The notes under the pieces: generated by a model | What the model saw: only the letters and a program-made list of their open reading frames with translations | Told to the model about the DNA's origin: nothing | The model's database searches: none | Source: Thermoplasma volcanium GSS1 | Lineage (GTDB): Archaea > Thermoplasmatota > Thermoplasmata > Thermoplasmatales > Thermoplasmataceae | Reading direction: 5' to 3' | Assembly: GCF_000011185.1 (NCBI RefSeq) | Contig: NC_002689.2 | Coordinates: 1,302,001-1,366,000, forward strand | DNA length: 64,000 bases | Program-made: the position numbers and the translations under genes | Shown: positions 7,485 through 9,382 of the stretch, piece by piece | Numbering within the stretch: position 1 is the stretch's first letter | How the letters are laid out: every line of letters begins with the position of its first letter

Positions 7485-8729
7485 TTAGCTGTAATAGTCC
7501 ATGCTTACGTTCTTTGTTTCTACGCCTATGAACATCCATACTATGGCTGCTACCAACCCCAAGCACCACAACGCAAGATTAAAAAATATATACTGCGACA
7601 GTGTGAACGAAGCGGTCAGGTAAATAGATGCAATATACGCGAGTATAGGAAATACTCGAACAAGGCCTATGGATGTGGATCTACGCTTTGTTCCAAAGAG
7701 TTCTGGTTCAAGTGTAGTCCTTGAAGCCCAAGCAAATTCTGAGAACATCATATTGATAAAAAGAAGCGGGAGAAAAACTAGCATGTTATCTACGTATTTT
7801 ATCGTGGCAAGTATAAGTAGTATAGAAATAGTGCCACCCAAGTATGATAATATAGCATACTTCTTTCTGCCGATATCAACTAGGAACATAGCGATTATGC
7901 CGGCTACAGAAGCACCAAGCAATGCATAGAAAATTATCTCACTTACCTGGGCTGGTGAGAAATAATAAGGGCCTACGATGTATGCCATAAGCCCGAACGT
8001 TAGATATTGTGATATTCCAAGGATAGCAAGAAAAGCTAACGAAACACTGAAATTCGGTTCTTTTATCCGTATACCGTCTTCACTGATCTTTAATTTTTTA
8101 TAGAGATTTTCAGCTTCCTTCTCCGATCCAGTTTCACGAAGCCACCTGAACGACTCCGGTATAGATCTTCTAGTGTATAAAGCGAGAAACACAGCAAAGA
8201 AGGCGATAATTAGGAAATACAACTTTTGTATTTGGATAGAGGATGAGTTAAAATATAGAAACACAAACGCAATAACAGCACTTCCTACATTATTCATATT
8301 AGGCACAAATGCGAGGAATTTACCCCTGTGTTTTATCGGAACATCTTCAGATATCAGGGATAAAGTCGTAACCTCTTCGCCCCCTACGCCTATCTCAGAT
8401 AGGGCGATACCTATAACAAGCAATACTACATTATTCGAGGCAAAGATGATGAGAAGTCCAGCCAAGTAAAAAAGAATTGTCATTAGGTATATTGGTTTTC
8501 TACCTAGGATGTCTGAAAGTTTACCAAGGATCGTATTCCCAGTCAGTAAAAAAACAGATGGCAAAGAAAGAAAAACAGATAAATAAACTCTTGGAAGCCC
8601 TTTAACATAAGGCCACGCAGTAGCAAGCGGAGCTATGCTTGCTATTATGCCCCATATAAACATCCCAGCTGAAGCAGACACTAAAAGAGATCTTACATAA
8701 TTTCTATCTCTACTATATGCATCCGACAT
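7485..8729 (-). CDS. MFS transporter, probable thiamine (or precursor) permease under TPP riboswitch
   Basis: A 414-residue major facilitator with about twelve hydrophobic segments. The loop between helices 2 and 3 reads GKLSDILGRKPIYL, the classical MFS G-x-L-x-D-x-x-G-R-(R/K) signature, and the homologous loop GRKKYAILSYLGG is seen in the second half. A long central loop (EKEAENLYKKLKISEDG) separates the halves, as in sugar/metabolite porters. A complete TPP riboswitch immediately precedes and overlaps the start codon, so uptake of thiamine or a thiamine precursor is strongly inferred; comparative work on THI elements proposed MFS-type thiamine transporters (ThiT1/ThiT2) in Thermoplasma, from memory. 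The ATG at 8727-8729 is fixed by the riboswitch geometry. Confidence 0.85.
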   Translation of the reverse strand: MSDAYSRDRNYVRSLLVSASAGMFIWGIIASIAPLATAWPYVKGLPRVYLSVFLSLPSVFLLTGNTILGKLSDILGRKPIYLMTILFYLAGLLIIFASNNVVLLVIGIALSEIGVGGEEVTTLSLISEDVPIKHRGKFLAFVPNMNNVGSAVIAFVFLYFNSSSIQIQKLYFLIIAFFAVFLALYTRRSIPESFRWLRETGSEKEAENLYKKLKISEDGIRIKEPNFSVSLAFLAILGISQYLTFGLMAYIVGPYYFSPAQVSEIIFYALLGASVAGIIAMFLVDIGRKKYAILSYLGGTISILLILATIKYVDNMLVFLPLLFINMMFSEFAWASRTTLEPELFGTKRRSTSIGLVRVFPILAYIASIYLTASFTLSQYIFFNLALWCLGLVAAIVWMFIGVETKNVSMDYYS

Positions 8730-8818
8730 AATTTCCCTCCGCCGGCATTACCCGGATCAGGTTCAAAGGGTCGATCCTCCTCGGATCCTCTCAGCCTCCT
8801 ACGAAGCTCCCCTTTATG
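8727..8818 (-). promoter_or_regulatory. TPP (THI-box) riboswitch overlapping the start codon
   Basis: Read on the minus strand, the element has GGGGAGC, GGCTGAGAGGAT, GACCCTTTGAACCTGAT and CCGGGTAATGCCGGCGGAGGGA in order, all hallmarks of the thiamin pyrophosphate aptamer including the CUGAGA pyrimidine-binding loop and the ACCUGAU/GGGUAAUGC J and P4-P5 parts. The closing P1 stem can form between CATAA (8818-8814) and TTATG (8731-8727), and the latter contains the ATG of the transporter. Ligand binding that stabilises P1 would therefore hide the start codon. The GGAGGG just upstream of the ATG is also inside the aptamer. Confidence 0.95.
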
Positions 8819-8926
8819 AACTGATATTCTCATCGCATATTTAAGGTTTGATCATGTTGACATTAATTGAGACATACAAAAATATATGTAATAAACTATT
8901 ATAAGAGTAAAAGTACAGTGATTGAG

Positions 8927-9382
8927 ATGGCATACGATGATGACGAGAATTCCATGGCCATCAAGGTATGGAGACTCTACGTAGACCTTTGGAAACTTTG
9001 GTATAAAAAGAACGAGAGGAATTTAAATAAGATCGACCTGTCGATCACCGAGTTCACCATAATGAGGCATTTAATTGAAAATGGACCTATGTCAATGGCT
9101 GCTATAGCCTCTCTCATAAACGTTACTCCAGGTTGGATCACCGGCGTAGTAGATAAAATGGAAGAAAAAAATTTAGTCACTAGAAATAGAGATTCTACCG
9201 ACAGGAGAATAATTAAAATAGCAATAACAGACCGGGGAAGGGAAGTATACGAAAATGCAAAGAAAAATCATTATGCATTCATAAGAAAAGCCCTTGCTGA
9301 ACTCAATGAAAACGAGTTACAACAAACCTATGTTTTGCTACAAAAAATGATGGATGATGTCTCTAAACTTGAATCAAATTGA
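8927..9382 (+). CDS. MarR family winged-helix regulator
   Basis: About 151 residues from MAYDDDENS. The middle holds a MarR winged helix: LSITEFTIMRHLIENG, then the recognition region SMAAIASLINVTPGWITGVVD and the wing DSTDRRIIKIAITDRG, with the DxRxxxIxLTxxG-type signature. Flanking helices would form the dimer interface. The start at 8927 is chosen because the upstream extension to a TTG at 8867 has no family character; an in-frame GTG at 8918 is also possible, and a TATA-like ACTATTATAAG lies about 20-30 bases before. It is divergent from the TPP-riboswitch-controlled transporter; a MarR regulator here may respond to an aromatic or drug-like ligand. Target genes are not evident. Confidence 0.88.
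   Translation: MAYDDDENSMAIKVWRLYVDLWKLWYKKNERNLNKIDLSITEFTIMRHLIENGPMSMAAIASLINVTPGWITGVVDKMEEKNLVTRNRDSTDRRIIKIAITDRGREVYENAKKNHYAFIRKALAELNENELQQTYVLLQKMMDDVSKLESN

Follow-up and report, generated by a model that had tools for sequence, protein, structure and literature searches.

A TPP riboswitch aptamer that holds the Shine-Dalgarno sequence of a transporter gene in Thermoplasma volcanium

A TPP aptamer immediately upstream of an MFS gene

We analysed a stretch of 64,000 nucleotides of the Thermoplasma volcanium GSS1 chromosome (hereafter the window; NC_002689.2, positions 1,302,001 to 1,366,000), in which a 414-aa open reading frame (ORF) lies on the minus strand at 8729..7485. Its product matches MFS_1 and Sugar_tr (PF07690, PF00083), the NCBIfam subfamily models giving matches below cut-off only, and its N-terminal region can be aligned with those of its orthologues. 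The ATG at 8729-8727 is the earliest start codon in this frame. Around it, cmscan places a TPP riboswitch aptamer (RF00059; 8823-8715, minus strand, flanks included) with 74.2 bits against a gathering score of 54.3 (E 9e-13), which is far above chance and spans the full length of the model (positions 1-105 of 105). CUGAGA, GAACCUGAU and the AGGGA core are all present in the Rfam alignment, together with P2, P3, P4 and P5. The full THI element ahead of an MFS gene that a preliminary description had recognised at this place is thus borne out. An element predicted to sense vitamin B1 stands immediately ahead of a gene that it putatively controls; both the binding of TPP and the substrate of the transporter are predictions from sequence. 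A divergent gene for a MarR-family regulator (8867-9382, plus strand) has its upstream region in common with the riboswitch.

THI elements had already been noted in Thermoplasma (reviewer remark, PMC2974657), and in its aptamer core, its P2 to P5 helices and its transporter context the window element belongs to this known set. The same genome carries a second TPP riboswitch (L002) before a second MFS gene, which has the same layout with the Shine-Dalgarno sequence in the core, an ATG 3 nt after the core and a P1 of 3 bp at best. The statement that archaeal TPP riboswitches are few could not be upheld: 86 of the 117 genomes of the order Thermoplasmatales have one, and others are found elsewhere in the phylum and in records from Bathyarchaeota and Thermoproteales. 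According to a 2021 paper, the only experimentally determined natural archaeal riboswitch was the fluoride one of Thermococcus kodakarensis (PMC8241225).

The Shine-Dalgarno sequence in the aptamer core

The core of the window aptamer, CGGAGGGA, holds GGAGG (8740-8736), which is an archaeal Shine-Dalgarno (SD) sequence (PMC7531240), lies 6 nt before the ATG and is complementary to the 3' end of the 16S rRNA, the 16S gene of the same genome ending in GGATCACCTCC. The 3' strand of P4 (GAGG, 8739-8736) is part of this motif, and faces the 5' strand CCUG (8761-8758) in the Rfam alignment and in our hand-built list of pairs. Three P4 pairs are made with CCU (8761-8759) and the fourth, G8758:G8739, is unformed; in the secondary structure, P4 therefore engages only three bases of the five-base SD motif and leaves two unpaired. 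Because the last three bases of GGAGG lie in the P4 3' strand, the conserved aptamer CCU doubles as an anti-SD sequence.

For a comparative set of 123 TPP riboswitch loci from 86 genomes of the order, we determined where the aptamer, its core and the start codon lie, and sorted the loci into three classes. In class A (n=53), a transporter or substrate-binding-protein gene starts 3-7 nt after the core; in class C (n=49), a short ORF follows right after the core in nearly all loci; in class B (n=21), the gene start is mostly ~36-43 nt downstream and the core carries another base. What is conserved is CGGAGGGA, that is, an SD sequence GGAGG partly formed by the P4 3' strand, 3-8 nt before a start codon, and it occupies the same position in 103 of the 123 loci. 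All deduplicated class A and C loci (100%) form P2 (GGG:CCC), the three pairs of P4, and P5. With G at the variable core base, the fourth P4 pair is formed in none of the 56 deduplicated class A and C loci, as if the SD function outweighed pairing.

Since class B was defined partly by the core base, it would be circular to say that all class A and C loci have G, and core base and ORF position were tabulated without that circularity. Of the 103 loci of the order with G, 96 have an ORF of at least 12 codons whose start lies 3-8 nt past the core; of the 20 without, 4 do. For loci outside the order, both bacterial and archaeal, taken from a pattern scan (100-codon minimum, one near-identical Thermoplasmata locus excluded), the counts were 11/28 with G and 6/86 without (p 1.5e-4), a p-value that is rough because the loci are related. 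TPP riboswitches with the GCGGAGGGA core outside the order (L154, L169, L212) likewise hold the SD sequence in the core with a start codon 3-8 nt on; they are titled as bacteria, so the arrangement is not confined to archaea. An SD of at least 5 bases was found before 10 of 50 genes in the window and at 2 of 50 control positions, so SD-led initiation serves a minority of genes and the dependence of this organism on SD sequences is not assured.

Predicted promoter, proposed P1 stem and rival switches

A TATA-box-like sequence, CTTAAAT (8845-8839, minus strand), lies ~31-33 nt before the GGGG of P2, a position that is common across the order. A+T content peaks at 0.83-0.90 between -35 and -26 relative to this GGGG (122 upstream regions), and strong TATA matches at -37 to -26 occur in 82 of 123 loci against 9.8% of background windows. 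Promoters were scored with a fixed consensus, an unconstrained EM motif search having been dropped when it drifted to a meaningless motif; a looser threshold, which 51% of background windows pass, is uninformative, so we base the promoter assignment on the stricter count and the A+T profile. A TATA box at that position is lacking from few loci, L003, L004 and L035 among them. In T. kodakarensis, transcription initiates ~23 bp downstream of the TATA box (PMC4247193); with a TATA box at -33, the same spacing predicts a transcript start at ~8815 +/-3 in the window, and the near-fixed distance between TATA box and aptamer suggests that across the order the mRNA may start at the first bases of the aptamer.

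The preliminary description had proposed a different main switch, in which TPP stabilises a P1 stem between CAUAA (8818-8814) and UUAUG (8731-8727), so that the start codon is paired and initiation is blocked. The two strands are indeed exactly complementary over 5 bp, ATG included, and the Rfam P1 is exactly this CAUAA/UUAUG pairing, at the price of two bases (8733-8732) inserted between AGGGA and the stem, which are absent from the family consensus. The putative closing stem of the window element consists of five complementary pairs, needs an insertion, and sits at the predicted transcript start. Set against the window's 3' strand, 1.2% of random 5' flanks of the same composition gave at least five Watson-Crick pairs over the ATG, and 15% gave any 5-bp helix; among the 63 flanks in the deduplicated SD-type set, the window's own included, 9 pair with that strand over at least 5 bp. 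A chance of 1.2% per locus over ~63 non-redundant SD-type loci leads one to expect close to one such case, so the complementarity is real, yet not clearly above chance.

Conservation of P1 was assessed by scanning registers, permuting partner strands, and comparing with shuffled flanks and with slid registers. Across all registers, P1 was formed in 40-48% of deduplicated class A and 39-48% of class C loci, none standing out and all at the level of the slid controls; class B keeps P1 better, with 75% in the canonical register. A permutation test on class A and C together detected a weak excess of the P1 score (mean 3.16 vs 2.15, p 0.0025) and no excess of P1 helices of at least 4 bp. P1 was therefore rejected as a conserved element of class A and C loci, no register exceeding the slid controls and long helices not being enriched. 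The preliminary description had itself held that a start codon excluded from the pairing among relatives would count against its model, and this is what the genus displays: in the nearest relatives of the window gene, L003, L004 and L035 (64-65% identity), the possible P1 (GCGA/UCGU) stops right before the AUG, and L017 (61%) has none. The set includes a few other loci in which the whole start codon could be paired: L037, chiefly through G-U pairs, and L045 and L050, with 6 bp.

Folding adds nothing in favour of the stem. With the aptamer pairs forced, the energies with and without P1 were -28.5 and -28.7 kcal/mol at 37 °C (+0.2) and -13.6 and -15.0 kcal/mol at 60 °C (+1.4), so P1 contributes nothing in an energy model that leaves out tertiary contacts, and its probability in the unconstrained ensemble was at most 0.01. 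With its 5' strand holding the predicted transcript start as well, start-codon pairing is improbable as the main switch; P1 is apparently dispensable, and the pairing with the AUG is at best a local extra or reinforcement.

Strand exchange could also proceed without P1. When TPP is absent, the 5' end CAGUUCA (8823-8817) would extend P2 by pairing with UGAA(C)CUG (8765-8758), thereby occupying the P4 5' strand, holding P4 open and freeing the SD sequence, and TPP would reverse this. That structure is the apo minimum-free-energy fold at 37 °C, its pairing is worth -7.4 kcal/mol in the window, a value reached by 0 of 200 shuffles, and 14 of 123 loci have CAGUUC within the 12 nt immediately preceding P2, with a chance of 0.0013 per locus. 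These loci are, however, mutually related, and CAGUUC may instead belong to the promoter; in the window, the strand precedes the predicted transcript start and may not be transcribed at all. Pairing of the 5' flank against P4, strong though it is in the window, is not general in class A or C, so we retain this exchange as a rival that we consider unlikely. A relic or inactive aptamer with no regulatory role is less plausible still, given that the core and P2-P5 are kept across the order and that the aptamers stand before transporter or ThiB-like genes.

Proposed direct occlusion and other designs in the order

The best explanation of the window element, and in our view a probable one, is a TPP riboswitch that represses translation of the transporter by direct occlusion, a mode that calls for an SD sequence inside the aptamer and close enough to the start codon to function; GGAGG is found in just such a place. 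With its SD part of the aptamer, overlapping the P4 3' strand, and the P4 CCU acting as anti-SD, the gene would be expressed without TPP, when the short P4 may be open for enough of the time that the tail of the 16S rRNA can bind GGAGG and translation can start at the ATG downstream. The unconstrained P4 probability was 0.07-0.08 at 37 °C and 0.45-0.49 at 60 °C, which in the model leaves the SD free part of the time when TPP is absent. With TPP bound, P4 and the junction would be locked, the SD hidden and less transporter made. The preliminary description had also noted that a separate expression platform or terminator is lacking and that the device is unusually compact; we agree on both counts, and translational control is the likely mode.

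Extended to the order, this reading becomes a model that we hold to be about as well placed to be right as wrong. In the Thermoplasmatales, P1 would no longer be required, transcripts would start at the aptamer edge, and the core would have been adapted to GGAGG with the loss of one P4 pair, making the aptamer its own expression platform. Its output would be either direct initiation at a transporter gene or a short leader ORF translationally coupled to one, and a third group, before ThiB-like genes, would use a separate anti-aptamer platform. The element itself is known; what may be new is, at most, this order-wide direct-occlusion design without P1. Unlike RF00059 members in general, the SD-type loci of the order have no conserved P1, place the SD sequence in P4 and have no separate expression platform.

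The E. coli thiM TPP riboswitch represses translation in a TPP-dependent manner by hiding the SD sequence. The window element would share this hiding, whereas thiM uses a downstream platform, and class B is nearer to thiM than the window is. Early comparative work on THI elements reportedly proposed an overlap with the ribosome site. The window element provides a precise archaeal case in which the ribosome site and part of the aptamer are the same nucleotides. In a review of riboswitch mechanisms, the direct-occlusion types (Group 1; SAM-II and the preQ1 classes) are pseudoknot riboswitches and TPP riboswitches serve as the example of strand exchange (PMC10907184); the element described here resembles the former in having the ribosome site within the ligand-bound fold, and differs from them in that theirs are H-type pseudoknots. 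If our reading is correct, a class usually described as strand exchange would here act by direct occlusion, and a single core base may record the choice of occlusion across prokaryotes.

Class C points to a further step between aptamer and transporter. Its leader ORFs comprise 12-42 codons, are served by the embedded SD sequence (for example in L012, L020, L024, L042, L046, L057 and L077) and, in 45 of 48 loci, terminate between -14 and +12 nt from a potential transporter start, often overlapping it, which suggests translational coupling downstream of an archaeal riboswitch. Between related leader ORFs, no clear excess of third-position changes and no clear purifying pattern in the peptides were detected, so the coupling, not the peptide, may be what matters. 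Two TPP aptamers with an CGUAGGGA core (L006, L036; genome G097) stand before MFS-like genes whose frames are apparently interrupted.

Class B has an apparent strand-exchange design, with an anti-aptamer platform before ThiB-like genes. The class B protein that we tested is ThiB-like (TIGR01254 over cut-off), and a Pfam search of it returned no family. An extended pairing is possible between the aptamer 5' strand GCUAGGGGAGC and CGCUUUUCUGGC, or variants of it, just before the gene's SD sequence, and the energy of this duplex was below that of shuffled controls at p <0.05 in 17 of 19 loci, L085 and L122 lying above that level. Within the 5' strand of the aptamer, the segment GCUAGGGGAGCG has complementarity, G-U pairs included, to CGCUUUUCUGGC just upstream of the gene's own SD, as in L044, L082, L083, L087, L094 and L108, and, outside the order, L132. 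By eye, the UUUUCU that follows CGCUUUUCUGGC in class B loci such as L083 could pair with AGGAGA across a GGC loop, which would hide the SD sequence when TPP is bound.
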